In this document: positions 17,510 to 23,631 of the stretch, piece after piece
Layout: every line of letters begins with the position of its first letter
Numbering within the stretch: position 1 is the stretch's first letter
Origin: Spirochaetia bacterium
GTDB taxonomy: Bacteria > Spirochaetota > UBA4802 > UBA5550
DNA length: 64,000 bases
NCBI GenBank assembly: GCA_009885955.1
Contig: VFJS01000003.1
Location: forward strand, 335,086 to 399,085
Direction: 5' to 3'
Program-made: the position numbers and the translations under genes
Notes under the pieces: generated by a model
Database searches by the model: none
What the model saw: the letters and a program-made list of their open reading frames with translations, nothing else
What the model was told of the DNA's origin: nothing

Positions 17510-17655
17510 TAAAAAAAGCAGCCACAGAGTCACTGAGGCACAGAGAATCATTAATATTGCATAATTGTAAAGTTAAACTTCTTAATCGAAACCCATTTTT
17601 TATTATTAATTAATAATAACATAACTCTGTGACTCTGAGCCTCTGTGGCAAATCA
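17510..17655 (+). repeat. Family A inverted repeat, copy 2 (forward)
   Basis: Left arm AAAAAAAGCAGCCACAGAG (17511-) and right arm CTCTGTGACTCTGAGCC then TCTGTGGCAAATC (ends 17655), AT-rich centre. It fills the space between the convergent pabB and symporter operons and might also serve as a transcription stop. Confidence 0.75.
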
Positions 17656-17667
17656 TTCTTATCACAG

Positions 17668-17847
17668 CTAAAAAACTGCAATTCTCAGCATGTCTTCAAA
17701 TATGACTCTGAGGAAAAAAAGCAGCGCAATGGAGCCGAAGAGCAGGCGCACAAAATCCCTTTCGCCATCTTTATCCCTGTAGGTGAGGCCGTGATAGGCA
17801 ATAAATCCGGTTAATATCAGGAAAATGATATTTACTCCCCTTTCCAT
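17668..17847 (-). CDS. Small two-helix membrane protein (59 residues)
   Basis: An unlisted short frame on the minus strand, ATG at 17847 and TAG at 17668-17670. It begins MERGVNIIFLILTGFIAYHG, has a charged loop TYRDKDGERD and a second hydrophobic stretch LLFGSIALLFFLRVIF. The clean two-helix pattern with a polar hairpin, and its position 45 bases after the cNMP/CBS gene on the same strand, suggest a real last gene of the symporter operon. No strong ribosome site is visible. Function unknown. Confidence 0.55.
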   Translation of the reverse strand: MERGVNIIFLILTGFIAYHGLTYRDKDGERDFVRLLFGSIALLFFLRVIFEDMLRIAVF

Positions 17848-17892
17848 TTTTAACCGGTATATTCTTTCATAGTGTTTTTGCCTTTTTATGAC

Positions 17893-19824
17893 TCACAGTA
17901 TTCCGGCATCTTTCATAAATTTTGTCAGTTCGGCCTGGAGCCTTGAAATAATCCGGAAAATGTCGTTCATGAATTTTTTTTCAAGAATAGAGAGTAGGCC
18001 GGGATCGATGAGGTCATCGGGGGCTGCTTTACGTTCCTTCTTCCTCAATTGATTCATGATCCTGAGGTTGAGAAGAAATTCAAATCCATTCAGGATGTCA
18101 TCCCTCAGATCAGGGAGGATGATATTTTTTTCTGAAAGTAAGTATATCCTTCCTATGGTCGAAGGGGTTTCAATTTTGCTGAAAAGGGCCATGACCCTTA
18201 TTGAGTCTACAATGGGGTAGATGCAGCTTCTTGAAATATGGAGTTCACCTTTATGTTCGCCGCTGCTCATAACTACTCTGTCATTGTAAAAGCCGATGGG
18301 TGGGTTTACAGAAAGGGCCGGTAGTGTCATTGCGGCAAGGTACTTTTTCTCCGAGGCTATTCTGTCATGGATTTTATTTTTAAAAAGGGTTGATGTTTCC
18401 TCGCTGCCGTAAAAATTTTTTAAGTCAAGAAACCTGCTTGCCGAAGTTATCTTCTCCGGATCACCTGAAAGGAGGCCGGAGCTGATAAGCCCTATCCATT
18501 CGGAGATACTCCCGGCCGGGAGCGCTCCTGCTCCGGAGGGATTCGATTCAACAGGAGGGAAACCAATCTTGACGTTAACATCCTCCTGGTTGCGGATCAG
18601 TTTCATGCAGAATTCCCTCAGTTCCGATTCTATCCTCCCGTCTGCCTGGTCCGGATAGACGAGGGCCTGATTCCACGCTGAATTGAATACCTGCTCGGAC
18701 CTGCCGCTGCTTCCAAAGGAGAGGCAGGAAAGAGTGCTGAAGATCTTTTTTTCATCGTCTTTGAGAATGATATTAATTGTCCTTCGTGCAATCCGTTCAT
18801 TTATATTCGTGATGATCCCGGCAATATGCCTGGCGCTCACCCCTGTACCTGTCAGGGTTGATATTATTTTAACTGTCTTCCCATAAATGGCGGCAAGACT
18901 ATCAAGACTGTTTTCAATTTCAATTGTTTTCACAATGGATATGGGCGATATGCCCTGCAGTACCATGAAATCGGAATTTGTGACAACACCCTTCAGCCTG
19001 TTTTCGTTATCAACGACAATCAGGTGGTGTATGTTATGGCTCATCATCATCAGCAGCGCATCGAAGGTCATTATCGATGAGTTTACGGTATAGGCAGCCG
19101 GGCTCATTATTTCTGTTACCTGCCGGCCCGGGTCTATTCCCGTGGCCAGTACCTTGTCCCTGAGGTCTCTCAGTGTTATGATACCGGCAGGTGAGCCCAT
19201 TTCATCCTCGAAAATGAGGCTGCTGATATTGTTATCAGACATTATTTCAGAAGCTTTTCTTATGCTTATTCCTGTCCCTGAGGTAATTACTTTTCTGTGT
19301 ATGAGGTCTTCGATCTTTGTTGTAAACAGCAGCCTGTCCGTATCCCCTTCCCCGTCAGCGGGTTTGAAATGCTTTGAATACATCTCCAGGGTTGACTGAT
19401 CGGGAAAATTACGAAAGAAAGCATGTGAGAAAAATTTCCTCAAGGCAGGGACTTCATTTGTCATCACCGAAATTTTTTCCATGGGGATAACATAGACGAT
19501 AGTATCATCCATTGTTTCAATATCAACATCAAGGCCATCTCCATGTTCGGAAGGTGAGAACCCGAAGATCTGGCCACAGTCTAAAACAGCAACGGGGGAA
19601 AGGGAGTCCATGACACCGCATGCACCGGAATTTTTTATCATAACGCCGCCGCTCCTGATTACTCTTATGTATTTTAATAAGGCGGGATTATTCGCAGGGA
19701 TTTTCTCACCTTTATGAAAAAATTCAACGGAGACTACCTGAGCTATCACATTGATCTGTTCCTCGTTCAGAAATCTGAAAGGCGGGACTGCGTTAATAAA
19801 ATCAATGATTTCTCTGAGTATCAT
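17893..19824 (-). CDS. cNMP-binding/CBS/DUF294 signalling protein with altered nucleotidyltransferase site
   Basis: 643 residues. Residues 1-135 form a cyclic-nucleotide-binding-like barrel; about 165-290 hold two CBS motifs (SEIMSDNNISSLIFEDE, HNIHHLIVVDNENRLKGVVT); about 300-440 match a GlnD-like nucleotidyltransferase (DUF294), and the rest the DUF294 C-terminal helical domain. In active relatives the motif reads GS-x-GR-x-EQ-...-D-x-D-N-A. Here it is FGSSGRSEQ followed by NSAWNQALVY, so both metal-binding Asp are replaced by Ala and Asn. It probably senses nucleotides without transferring them. It lies downstream of an SSS symporter, a pairing seen in other bacteria, and may control that transporter. 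Confidence 0.85.
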   Translation of the reverse strand: MILREIIDFINAVPPFRFLNEEQINVIAQVVSVEFFHKGEKIPANNPALLKYIRVIRSGGVMIKNSGACGVMDSLSPVAVLDCGQIFGFSPSEHGDGLDVDIETMDDTIVYVIPMEKISVMTNEVPALRKFFSHAFFRNFPDQSTLEMYSKHFKPADGEGDTDRLLFTTKIEDLIHRKVITSGTGISIRKASEIMSDNNISSLIFEDEMGSPAGIITLRDLRDKVLATGIDPGRQVTEIMSPAAYTVNSSIMTFDALLMMMSHNIHHLIVVDNENRLKGVVTNSDFMVLQGISPISIVKTIEIENSLDSLAAIYGKTVKIISTLTGTGVSARHIAGIITNINERIARRTINIILKDDEKKIFSTLSCLSFGSSGRSEQVFNSAWNQALVYPDQADGRIESELREFCMKLIRNQEDVNVKIGFPPVESNPSGAGALPAGSISEWIGLISSGLLSGDPEKITSASRFLDLKNFYGSEETSTLFKNKIHDRIASEKKYLAAMTLPALSVNPPIGFYNDRVVMSSGEHKGELHISRSCIYPIVDSIRVMALFSKIETPSTIGRIYLLSEKNIILPDLRDDILNGFEFLLNLRIMNQLRKKERKAAPDDLIDPGLLSILEKKFMNDIFRIISRLQAELTKFMKDAGIL

Positions 19825-19853
19825 AAAGTTTTTCAGACAGGGCGTAACCCCGA

Positions 19854-20444
19854 TCAGAGGATTTTCCCGGGCTGGTACATATTCTGTTTTTTATCAAAGG
19901 GGTCGTATTTGAGTACCCGATCCTTCTCAGGTTTTTTTAATTCCTTTTCCAGATAATTCAACCGGTCATAAATAGTCGGCTGTTTTTCATGGATATTCCT
20001 GGCAAAACGCCAGAGCCATCCCGGGCCTTCTGCCAGCGAAGGGTTGTATCTCAGGGCATCCCTGTAATCTTTCGCAGCTTCATTGTATTTTTCAAGTCTG
20101 TCGTTGAGGATGCCCCTGTTGGCGTATGCCTCAGCAAAGTCATTTCTCCCTGAAATGGCCTTATCAAAGGAGTTTTTTGATTCAATGTATTTCCCCTCAA
20201 GCATTAGAATTATCCCTCTGGTCATATGCATTGGCGGAAAATCAGGATTTTCTTCAAGCCCCCTGTCAATATGGACAAGGGCCCGGGCGATATTTTTTTT
20301 TTCAAGATGGATGTTGCTTATCCTGTATTCTCTCTCCCCTTTAAAACTCTCATCCCTGCTTGAAAGTATGAAATAAAGACCATACCCTGCGAGAAGGGCA
20401 ATCATACAGAGAGGTAAAAAATTTTTTTTTAATGTATCGATCAT
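19854..20444 (-). CDS. Membrane-anchored TPR protein
   Basis: 196 residues. One N-terminal hydrophobic segment (FLPLCMIALLAGYGLYFIL) is followed by about three tetratricopeptide repeats, the clearest being ALVHIDRGLEENPDFPPMHM, AKDYRDALRYNPSLAEGPGW and the one between them (YIESKNSFDKAISGRNDFAE). The tail is charged and unrecognised. TPRs mediate protein contacts, here probably at the periplasmic face of the inner membrane. Start overlaps the stop of the upstream small membrane protein by four bases, so it belongs to the symporter operon. Confidence 0.8.
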   Translation of the reverse strand: MIDTLKKNFLPLCMIALLAGYGLYFILSSRDESFKGEREYRISNIHLEKKNIARALVHIDRGLEENPDFPPMHMTRGIILMLEGKYIESKNSFDKAISGRNDFAEAYANRGILNDRLEKYNEAAKDYRDALRYNPSLAEGPGWLWRFARNIHEKQPTIYDRLNYLEKELKKPEKDRVLKYDPFDKKQNMYQPGKIL

Positions 20445-20707
20445 TTCTTATCGAACATTTTCCAGATTAAATAGTAGTTGAATATTAATGAAAAAATTAT
20501 ACAAATGATGAGGGCCGTGAGAGTCGATTTTCTCTCTATCGTTTTCCTGTTAATTACATCGGTTTCTCTATCCAGATTTCTTTCAGCCCTTTTGAGCCTT
20601 CCGTTGAATATTATTTTTTTTACCGGACTGTAGAGAAAAAAAGCCATAAGTAATGTGGTTCCCGCCTGCCAGAGGAAGAGTCTTAATTTTATTTCATCAT
20701 AGCCCAT
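20441..20707 (-). CDS. Small membrane protein of symporter operon
   Basis: 88 residues with two hydrophobic segments: LFLWQAGTTLLMAFFLYSPV near the N-terminus and LTALIICIIFSLIFNYYLI near the C-terminus, joined by a basic amphipathic stretch (RLKRAERNLDRETDVINRK). It follows the symporter by three bases and overlaps the TPR gene by four. The size and place recall the small subunits that accompany some SSS transporters, but no signature of such a family was recognised. Confidence 0.7.
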   Translation of the reverse strand: MGYDEIKLRLFLWQAGTTLLMAFFLYSPVKKIIFNGRLKRAERNLDRETDVINRKTIERKSTLTALIICIIFSLIFNYYLIWKMFDKK

Positions 20708-20710
20708 GTA

Positions 20711-22660
20711 TCAATTGTTTAATGCCGTCGGGGCATCATCAACCAGGGCCTTGATTTCAGCTTTCGGTATTATTGACATTTTAAAGTAATAGGCAAGCAT
20801 CCACATCATGGCTACTCCTGCCGCCCACCAGATAATCTGCCAGGCCCAGATGGAGGGCATTCCGAAGATCCATGTTTCCGAATTATTCGGATCACCGAAA
20901 ATATTATTCCCGATGATAGCTCCCGGGCCGATAGCCATGACAAACCATGCGATTGTCAGTATCCATCCAGCCGGCCTGAATTTTTTTCTCTCCTCAGGAA
21001 CTGAGGCATGTTCCCTGAGAAAATTGTGAAATTTCATCTTGTGTTCCAAATCCTCATTATTCTGGGTGAATAGGGAAACAGTCAGTGCCAGGCCCAGGTT
21101 GAAAAATATCCCCCATCCCGCCGAGTGCATTGTAAGGGGCCATCTCCCCCAGAAGGGGATTCCCAGGAGATCCACTCCAATGGATTCAGTCAGGGTTACT
21201 GCCAGTATCCCCGCAATAAGGCCGGCGTTTATGCCGGACCGAGTAAGCCATGGCCAGTAACATACCGCGATGAGTGCCGGCCACATCTGGAAGCCATAGG
21301 CAACTGCGAGCCCTCCAAGGAGAACCAGCGCATCGCTGGAATATATTGCAATAGTCATGGATGATGCAATTATCAGGAAAATGCTGAGCTTTCCGAATAA
21401 TATCTGGATTTCATGTGATGCAGTCTTATTGATGAAGTGTTTGTAAAAGTCCCTTGTGATGATGCCGCCGGCTGCCGAGAGATAGGGTGCTGCTGTTGAC
21501 TGCATGGCTGCCAGGGCGCAGACACTGAGAAGCCCTATTGCCCACGGGGCGCTTTCAGAGAGGAGGTTTATCAGCGCCGGGACAATGATGTCCTGCTTTC
21601 CGGGGTGCAGCATAATGTCCATGCCCAGGCCTGTGTAGTCCAGGTTTGAACCTGCTTTTACCATGGATGCATCGAGTCCCAGAAAGTGTCCACCCAGGCC
21701 CTGCATGGCAGTAAAGACAATAAGGATAAAACCAATGAGACATGATGAAGCCCAGACCTGCTGCGGAGCAAAGGGTTTCGGGTCCTTGTTTGAAAAAGCC
21801 CACATGGTATAGGTTGGCGCGGCCTGAATACCCATGAGGGCGAACATGTACGTGAGGCACATCATCCCGGTCCATTCGCCGCCCAATGCGTCTTTGCCCT
21901 GCTTTACAAACTGTATGATGCCGGGCATTGCAATGTAGTGGCTGTATCCGTCCGGGGTTCTTGTCTGATCATTGAATGCCAGTTTTTCAATCCCTTTCAT
22001 AAGCATTTTCCATCCGCCGACATAATAGAGGGTAATTATTCCAGTTGCTATTATTCCAGTTGCAAGGAGGATAAACTGCATTGTATCAACATATACGATT
22101 GCCTTAACCCCTCCAAGGGCCACGAAGATGAGTACCACAAGGGCAATCATGAGAATTCCGGCCTCAAAGGGGAAGAGGTCGTCTGATAGAATTTTAAAGA
22201 GCAGGCCCGAAGCCCTCAGCTGGACGGCAATATAGGGGATTGTATAGAACATGGCTATGATAACCGTGAGAATTCTTATAAGGTCCGATTTGAAATAGTC
22301 GGAAAACATATCACCGGGAGTGACATAGCTGAAGCGCTTTCCAAGCATCCATTGCCTTTTTAAAAACATGGTTCCGGTAAAGGGGATTCCAATGGCATAG
22401 AATGAAGCGTAGGCATACTGGAACCCGTTAAGGTAGAGAAGGCCGGGATGCCCCATGAAGGTCCACCCTGAGAATGAAGTCGCGGTAGCTGCAAGGATAA
22501 ATACCCATATGGGGATTTTCCTGCCCGCTTGAAAGAAGTCCGTAGCGGTCTTTGTAAGCCTGGTTCCTTTAATCCCCCAGAATATGCAGTAGAACCAGTA
22601 GAGAAGTACAAAGACGAGAAGCCATATTACTTTTGCCTGCACGTAAGCCCCCAGCTTCAT
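20711..22660 (-). CDS. Sodium:solute symporter (SSS family)
   Basis: 649 residues, with about thirteen or more hydrophobic segments, longer than the typical 500-residue member. FFQAGRKIPIWVFILAATATSFSGWTF is the SSS start of the transporter core; GGVKAIVYVDTMQFILLATG and the AAMQSTAAPYLSAAGGIITRDFYKHF block are the standard sodium-site landmarks. Inner membrane, cation-coupled uptake; substrate not predictable, perhaps a carboxylate or amino acid. It leads a minus-strand operon with two small membrane proteins, a TPR protein and a cNMP/CBS/DUF294 protein. Confidence 0.9.
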   Translation of the reverse strand: MKLGAYVQAKVIWLLVFVLLYWFYCIFWGIKGTRLTKTATDFFQAGRKIPIWVFILAATATSFSGWTFMGHPGLLYLNGFQYAYASFYAIGIPFTGTMFLKRQWMLGKRFSYVTPGDMFSDYFKSDLIRILTVIIAMFYTIPYIAVQLRASGLLFKILSDDLFPFEAGILMIALVVLIFVALGGVKAIVYVDTMQFILLATGIIATGIITLYYVGGWKMLMKGIEKLAFNDQTRTPDGYSHYIAMPGIIQFVKQGKDALGGEWTGMMCLTYMFALMGIQAAPTYTMWAFSNKDPKPFAPQQVWASSCLIGFILIVFTAMQGLGGHFLGLDASMVKAGSNLDYTGLGMDIMLHPGKQDIIVPALINLLSESAPWAIGLLSVCALAAMQSTAAPYLSAAGGIITRDFYKHFINKTASHEIQILFGKLSIFLIIASSMTIAIYSSDALVLLGGLAVAYGFQMWPALIAVCYWPWLTRSGINAGLIAGILAVTLTESIGVDLLGIPFWGRWPLTMHSAGWGIFFNLGLALTVSLFTQNNEDLEHKMKFHNFLREHASVPEERKKFRPAGWILTIAWFVMAIGPGAIIGNNIFGDPNNSETWIFGMPSIWAWQIIWWAAGVAMMWMLAYYFKMSIIPKAEIKALVDDAPTALNN

Positions 22661-22758
22661 TAATAAAAATTACACAAAAATCTTTTTTTTAACTGACTGT
22701 TATTATTATCAGGCTTTCTAGTAAGGAATGTCAAGAGAAAATTTTTCCCGGACCGGCT

Positions 22759-22842: not shown

Positions 22843-23211
22843 TCAATGAATTTCAATTTTTTTCGGTATAGCCTCCTCTTTTTTATTCAGAATCAGTGTC
22901 AACAGACCATTTTCAAGCTTTGCTTCAATTTTGTCAGTATCTACGCCCTCATCTGTTTTAAATTTTCTATAGAAGCTTGCCGGTGTATATTCGCCGTAAA
23001 GCAGGCTTTTCCCCTCAGGAACAAGTTCATTTAAGTTGCCTTTGATTTCAAGTTCTCTCCCGTTTACTGTTATATCCAGGTTTTCCCTGGTAATCCCGGG
23101 AACTTCATAAATCATATGATAACCCGCATCAGTCTCATATATATCTGTCAAAGGGAGAAGGACGGTTTCCCGGCATTCACCGTTTTCATAATTTTTTATT
23201 GCTGTTTCCAT
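22843..23211 (-). CDS. Hsp20/alpha-crystallin small heat-shock protein
   Basis: 122 residues. The alpha-crystallin domain is complete: YHMIYEVPGITRENLDITV, FYRKFKTDEGVDTDKIEAK and the closing ENGLLTLILNKKEE with its GLLTL core strand. It ends IPKKIEIH, a conserved C-terminal I-x-I tail that docks to neighbouring subunits in oligomers. ATP-independent holdase that binds unfolding proteins in the cytoplasm. It lies 12 bases downstream of a second Hsp20 gene and shares its CIRCE-controlled promoter. The two proteins are clearly different in sequence and may form mixed oligomers. Confidence 0.93.
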   Translation of the reverse strand: METAIKNYENGECRETVLLPLTDIYETDAGYHMIYEVPGITRENLDITVNGRELEIKGNLNELVPEGKSLLYGEYTPASFYRKFKTDEGVDTDKIEAKLENGLLTLILNKKEEAIPKKIEIH

Positions 23212-23223
23212 AATAGGGCCTCC

Positions 23224-23631
23224 TTATTTTATTTCAATTTTTTTCGGCATAGCATGTTCGCTCTTCGGCATTTTAATGGTGAGAAGGCCGTCCTTCAATT
23301 CTGCATTTACTTTTCCCGCATCCACCTCATAAGGGAGAGTGATGGATTTTTTAAACTTTCCAAAAGTCCTTTCCTTCCTTAAGTAGGTGTTGCCGGTGTA
23401 ATCTGACTGTTTTTCACCTTCAATTGTAAGCAGTTCATCTTTGACTTCAATTTTCAGGTTTTCCCTGCTGATTCCAGGTAATGCAGCCCTGATCTCAATT
23501 TCATTATTTCCTTCATAGACTTGAACATATGGATATTCAGCATGGATAAAATCGACTGTTGAGCGATTAAACAGGTCGTCAACATAGTCAAAAATATCAA
23601 AACCTCTGTTTATTAGATTGTAAGTAACCAT
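23224..23631 (-). CDS. Hsp20/alpha-crystallin small heat-shock protein, first of pair
   Basis: 135 residues. N-terminal arm with DYVDDLFNRS, then the alpha-crystallin domain (IEIRAALPGISRENLKIEV, FKKSITLPYEVDAGKVNAEL, DGLLTIKMPK) and the IEIK tail. The first gene after the promoter and CIRCE operator upstream; AAGGAGG ribosome site. The expected role is protection of proteins during heat or other stress. Confidence 0.94.
   Translation of the reverse strand: MVTYNLINRGFDIFDYVDDLFNRSTVDFIHAEYPYVQVYEGNNEIEIRAALPGISRENLKIEVKDELLTIEGEKQSDYTGNTYLRKERTFGKFKKSITLPYEVDAGKVNAELKDGLLTIKMPKSEHAMPKKIEIK

Follow-up and report, generated by a model that had tools for sequence, protein, structure and literature searches.

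What can a protein with a nucleotidyltransferase fold contribute to a transporter operon when its catalytic residues have been lost? Enzymes of this fold (the Pol-β superfamily) require a carboxylate pair for metal, and the DUF294 protein encoded in the window, the whole 64,000-nucleotide stretch of spirochaete DNA analysed here, lacks both members of that pair. A single close relative is known and shares the loss; it is encoded in a sister genome of the same GTDB family, G006 (GenBank JAJRXZ, Spirochaetes bacterium isolate Dive96_bin3.202). The window protein represents a pseudo-enzyme form of a transporter-linked module that is known and widespread yet unexplained, and its role is probably that of a sensor or scaffold and not of an enzyme.

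The operon and its setting

Five co-directional genes occupy the minus strand from 22660 to 17668, in the order SSS symporter, 88-aa protein, TPR protein, DUF294 protein and 59-aa protein. These genes and the associated features are as follows:

22705..22734, minus strand: sigma-70-like promoter, TTGACA-18-GATAAT (consensus match only)
20711..22660, minus strand: SSS-family symporter, 649 aa, gene 1 (Pfam SSF, 1.4e-30)
20441..20707, minus strand: small membrane protein of 88 aa, assigned to no family, with a hydrophobic segment at residues 57-75
19854..20444, minus strand: TPR protein, 196 aa (Pfam TPR_2, 6.6e-15), with an N-terminal membrane anchor at residues 9-27 (hydropathy)
17893..19824, minus strand: CBS-CBS-DUF294-DUF294_C protein, 643 aa, with a degenerate cNMP-like N-terminal domain (Pfam; residues)
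18649..18714, minus strand: DUF294 active-site stretch GSSGRSEQVFNSAWNQALVYPD, residues 371-392 (alignment)
17668..17847, minus strand: membrane protein of 59 aa, last gene, with a counterpart in G006
17521..17649, no strand: inverted repeat that separates the operon from a convergent chorismate-binding gene

In gene order, the junctions comprise a gap of 3 nt, an overlap of 4 nt and gaps of 29 and 45 nt, and this tight arrangement supports the proposal of the first-pass annotation that the symporter, a TPR protein and two small membrane proteins share one transcript with the DUF294 gene. Hydrophobic membrane segments are present in four of the five products. The promoter-like element, which matches the consensus at 11 of 12 positions and is the best in the region, lies 45-74 bases 5' of the symporter ATG. 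At the other end, the inverted repeat is a possible two-way terminator, beyond which the convergent genes encode a chorismate-binding enzyme and its glutamine amidotransferase. No Rfam element was detected within the operon. Two tandem genes for Hsp20 small heat-shock proteins (22843-23631) lie on the same strand immediately 5' of it.

Genomic company of DUF294 proteins

The linkage of DUF294 proteins to symporters, a point on which the earlier reading depended, recurs across phyla, with an SSS gene near DUF294 at no fewer than 11 of the 18 loci examined. A DEDD exonuclease gene is found directly behind DUF294 at 10 of these 18, the sister genome included. Such DUF294-SSS neighbours, often accompanied by DUF4212 or DUF485 and the DEDD exonuclease, recur in Spirochaetota and Proteobacteria, and their DUF294 proteins are normally intact. 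The order is DUF4212, SSS and then DUF294 in Skermanella; acs, DUF485, the acetate symporter and then DUF294 in Paracoccus; and DUF4212, SSS, DUF294 and then the DEDD exonuclease in several spirochaetes. The genome that harbours the window (G000) itself carries a second, canonical set on another contig (C31; L038:8177-18000), comprised of an intact DUF294 protein (TDQDN), a histidine kinase, a response regulator, a PAS-domain DEDD exonuclease, DUF4212 and an SSS symporter.

The window operon resembles the VC_2705-type and acetate SSS systems in clustering a small membrane partner, a symporter and a DUF294 protein, but where those systems have DUF4212 or DUF485 subunits and a DEDD exonuclease, it lacks both DUF4212 and the exonuclease, its own additions being the TPR protein and the unrelated 88-aa and 59-aa proteins. 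The CBS/cNMP/DUF294 proteins of Vibrio, Skermanella and Paracoccus share with the window protein their full-length domain order and their genomic company; those read here all keep DQDN or DQDS, which the window protein and its sister have lost. For Pflu5625 and PP_0354 of Pseudomonas, the likeness to the window protein is one of published description, not of alignment. Pflu5625 of Pseudomonas fluorescens has been described as a protein with cAMP-binding, CBS and nucleotidyltransferase regions and belongs to the acetate-responsive CrbS/R regulon together with actP (PMC5715377), while PP_0354 of P. putida is an acetate-induced and uncharacterised CBS protein (PMC8402216). No paper on the catalytic function of DUF294, or on an inactive DUF294, was found in the open-access literature.

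From this company there is a reasonably good case that the symporter is the target of the DUF294 protein. The protein might instead act on gene expression or metabolism and be merely co-transcribed with the symporter, a reading that draws on intact DUF294 genes found with the exonuclease and no SSS gene in view (L059, L061) or near a DMT transporter (L053), and on an Anaerolineales locus (L077:7293-10611) where the neighbour of an intact DUF294 gene encodes an APC-type amino-acid permease and not an SSS symporter. The locus number of Pflu5625 is also distant from that of actP, and no growth phenotype on acetate is seen in its mutant (PMC5715377). The recurrence of SSS linkage in different phyla and the membrane segments in most of the operon's products speak against simple co-transcription, which we regard as rather unlikely. 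At three spirochaete loci (L037, L035, L064), DUF294 is fused behind sensor-like regions in proteins of 850-1200 aa, beside ActP-like symporters.

Loss of the catalytic site

The active-site sequence of the window protein reads GSSGRSEQVFNSAWNQA, while intact relatives follow the pattern GSEGRxEQxLxTDQDNA. The catalytic Asp positions are 383 and 385, and the window has Ala383, Trp384, Asn385 and Gln386. Across 25 further DUF294 rows aligned from Spirochaetota, Chloroflexota and Proteobacteria, Asp383, Gln384 and Asp385 are each present in all 25 rows and Asn386 in 24, with Ser in one. The motif quoted in the first-pass annotation, GSSGRSEQ followed by NSAWNQA, was accordingly correct in both its letters and its interpretation as a loss of the two Asp residues, and in no relative was the Asp seen elsewhere in an alternative motif. 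Because choosing relatives by overall similarity might favour intact ones, 393 Spirochaetota genomes were also surveyed with the adjoining DUF294_C domain, not the motif, as the key; DQDN is kept at 20 of the 22 loci above the cut-off, and only the window and G006 depart from it. For phyla other than Spirochaetota, the frequency of DxD loss is drawn from a small sample.

The loss extends beyond the Asp pair. A second near-invariant stretch, C425, M430, A431, N433 and W436 (window numbering, relatives' letters), is absent in both the window and G006: the Cys found in 25 of 25 relatives is replaced by Val/Ile in the pair, and the M-A-x-N-P-x-W stretch is missing from both. The window does retain the GS..R.E turn (G371, S372, R375 and E377), W443 and an acidic residue, D467 (Asp or Glu in 25 of 25 relatives), which is a candidate third carboxylate. 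The protein remains a recognizable member of the family, scoring 49.6 bits (4.7e-13) to Pfam DUF294 (PF03445) and 103.6 bits (1e-29) to DUF294_C (PF10335) against cut-offs of 21 and 22.5 bits, respectively, but erosion is concentrated in the catalytic domain: the scanned intact proteins score 132-165 bits to DUF294, compared to 108-152 bits to DUF294_C and 69-92 bits to CBS, where the window scores 67 bits (1.8e-18). The predicted structure, from a three-sequence input, has a mean pLDDT of 48, too low for the model to be informative. With no Asp-x-Asp following its GS..R.E turn, the protein is very likely, judging by these residues, to be devoid of transferase activity. The GlnD and GlnE nucleotidyltransferases share the GS...DxD motif with DUF294, and one relative weakly matches GlnE; the window protein differs from them in having neither an HD nor an ACT domain and in the loss of DxD.

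A rival reading, in which the domain still catalyses a reaction through a remodelled site where Asn385, D467 and further residues take over from the canonical pair, would be consistent with the retention of the GS..R.E turn and D467, which could allow some nucleotide binding or residual chemistry, and with the conservation of Trp384-Asn385 between two proteins whose nucleotidyltransferase parts are only about 28% identical. Against this, both members of DxD are gone together with C425, M430, A431 and W436 of the second stretch, and the carboxylate pair is a general need of the fold, so that we consider continued catalysis improbable.

A loss shared with a sister lineage

The DUF294 motif of G006 reads FKTLWNSAIVY, that is, L-W-N-S where the window has A-W-N-Q, on a contig that ends just within the motif, such that its GS..R.E turn, N-terminal half and any symporter linkage lie outside. 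The two proteins therefore have Trp384 and Asn385 in common, and their Asp pair is replaced by Ala/Asn and Leu/Asn, respectively. An initial scan of contigs with the DUF294 protein as single query gave no match, and both the G006 protein and the intact Anaerolineales protein were recovered by a two-row alignment search of genome contigs. Identity between the window and G006 amounts to 30/108 (28%) in the nucleotidyltransferase part and 66/141 (47%) in DUF294_C.

A tree built from 28 C-terminal regions places the window and G006 in one clade (100/100) whose stem measures 1.53 changes per column, compared to a median tip of 0.75, while their own tips, at 0.78 and 0.71, are ordinary. As the two make up one clade on a long stem, the loss is inherited, and the simplest reading of these branch lengths is a single loss with a burst of change, after which constraint resumed. 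Such a shared, inherited loss renders a sequencing error highly improbable and speaks against decay. Although the catalytic domain scores just 49.6 bits to Pfam DUF294, a decaying gene or an assembly artefact is hardly credible, given a frame open across 643 codons with no stops and an independently assembled MAG (JAJRXZ010000077.1, L076) that is altered at the same positions and conserved in its C-terminal domain; the sister sequence rules out a pseudogene or assembly error.

The 59-aa membrane protein, which has no Pfam match, shows the same distribution. It is encoded in 2 of the 393 phylum genomes, the window's and G006, ends the cluster of the dead DUF294 gene in both, and is 65% identical between them over 52 residues, above the 40% of the DUF294 protein. 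The pattern in these two genomes is suggestive of co-inheritance with the dead DUF294. The 64-aa product encoded behind DUF294 in Paracoccus was considered as a counterpart and ruled out, as it gives no match.

In G006 (L005:782-1495), the DEDD exonuclease gene overlaps the 3' end of the dead DUF294 gene. Its persistence after the loss of DxD means that the exonuclease cannot simply reverse a modification made by DUF294 there.

Nucleotide-binding domains

The CBS domains, reported as kept in the first reading, are indeed so, with the G-h-h-T/S-x-x-D ribose-contact motif of a Bateman module intact in both repeats (GIITLRD and GVVTNSD). The cNMP-like domain, also reported as kept, stands in part. 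Homology to the corresponding region of relatives is seen over the N-terminal 140 residues (67.5 bits to a custom profile of those relatives), but the window protein gives no match to Pfam cNMP_binding at E<=5, whereas six of six sampled relatives having the N-terminal domain match at 5e-7 to 3e-17. The Glu and Arg of the phosphate-binding cassette are likewise missing: the window reads FGFSPSEHGDGLDVDIET, and Paracoccus alone among the aligned relatives has FGERGLLRDGRAVTTA. With no such cassette, the domain does not serve as a sign of cyclic-nucleotide sensing; in the same alignment, judged by eye, most intact relatives lack this Glu and Arg too. With the cNMP-like domain having neither a Pfam match nor the phosphate-binding residues, the CBS pair is the only credible nucleotide sensor, and adenine nucleotides bound by it are the likelier input.

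A proposed regulator acting by binding

These observations can be brought together in a mechanism that we hold to be probable as a whole, though with moderate confidence. The 643-aa protein would descend from the CBS/DUF294 regulators commonly found with SSS symporters and would now be a pseudo-nucleotidyltransferase. The Asp pair and the adjoining invariant stretch would have been lost in the ancestor common to the window and its sister spirochaete, after which the protein would have been held under constraint as a non-catalytic regulator. Its CBS pair would read the adenine-nucleotide or energy state of the cell, while the dead nucleotidyltransferase domain and DUF294_C would form a binding surface that docks on the symporter or on the attached small membrane proteins, such that the symporter is switched by binding and not by nucleotide transfer. 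The conservation of the 59-aa membrane protein suggests that it may be a docking partner. A more specific form, in which the five genes make up a lineage-specific module with the DUF294 protein, once an enzyme, as a non-catalytic, CBS-gated subunit of the SSS transporter and the likewise lineage-specific 59-aa protein as its membrane dock, is put forward tentatively and is doubtful as a complete description.

There are precedents for this mode of control: SbtB binds SbtA in an AMP-dependent manner and CBS domains gate transporters (PMC10710835). The SbtA/SbtB pair exemplifies nucleotide-dependent docking on a sodium-coupled transporter, the mode proposed for the window, but its regulator has a PII-like fold unrelated to that of the DUF294 protein. 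The first-pass annotation had proposed a transporter under the direct control of a non-catalytic sensor, of which the Asp loss, the one-transcript layout and the intact CBS motifs are supported; we infer the directness of the control, as we do the identity of the ligand and the direction in which it acts. The occurrence of a dead DUF294 protein beside an intact paralogue in one genome offers a natural test of whether the job of this family needs catalysis, and should the dead protein still control its transporter, the mechanism would be one of binding.

The symporter and the 88-aa protein

The symporter belongs to the SSS (SLC5) family, matching the SSF profile over its full length (1-406 of 406; 1.4e-30), but falls far below every NCBIfam SSS subfamily cut-off, that of VC_2705 (TIGR03648) included, for which it scores 86.4 bits against 320.75. 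No relative at E below 1e-30 was found in the 393 phylum genomes, nor a close copy in the G006 genome. Its AAMQST segment, containing the Ser/Thr of the Na2 site, aligns with AAAQSS of SiaT, at the sodium site of that transporter, and suggests that the window symporter is sodium-coupled. The substrate may be guessed, from the company that the family keeps, to be acetate or another small carboxylate.

In other SSS systems, the DUF4212 or DUF485 partner gene precedes that of the symporter, whereas the 88-aa gene of the window comes after it. No homologue of the 88-aa protein was found; a weak match in G006 (E 0.003), to the membrane portion at the N terminus of an unrelated phosphoesterase-like protein, is attributed to chance.

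Over its full length, the symporter best matches unannotated proteins of 26-28% identity from alphaproteobacterial (rhizobial) plasmids and a cold-seep plasmid, where the same operon also encodes a rhodopsin, an alcohol dehydrogenase and a protein with a flotillin domain. The plasmid of the Bacteroidota member zrk40 is 246192 long and that of Martelella lutilitoris 246197, and contamination or mislabelling may be involved. The plasmids of Pararhizobium, Hoeflea and Dysgonomonadaceae bacterium zrk40 (L083, L084 and L085) have a near-identical gene order, namely ABC permeases, rhodopsin, flotillin-domain protein, a 141-aa protein, the long SSS-like protein and an iron-containing alcohol dehydrogenase.
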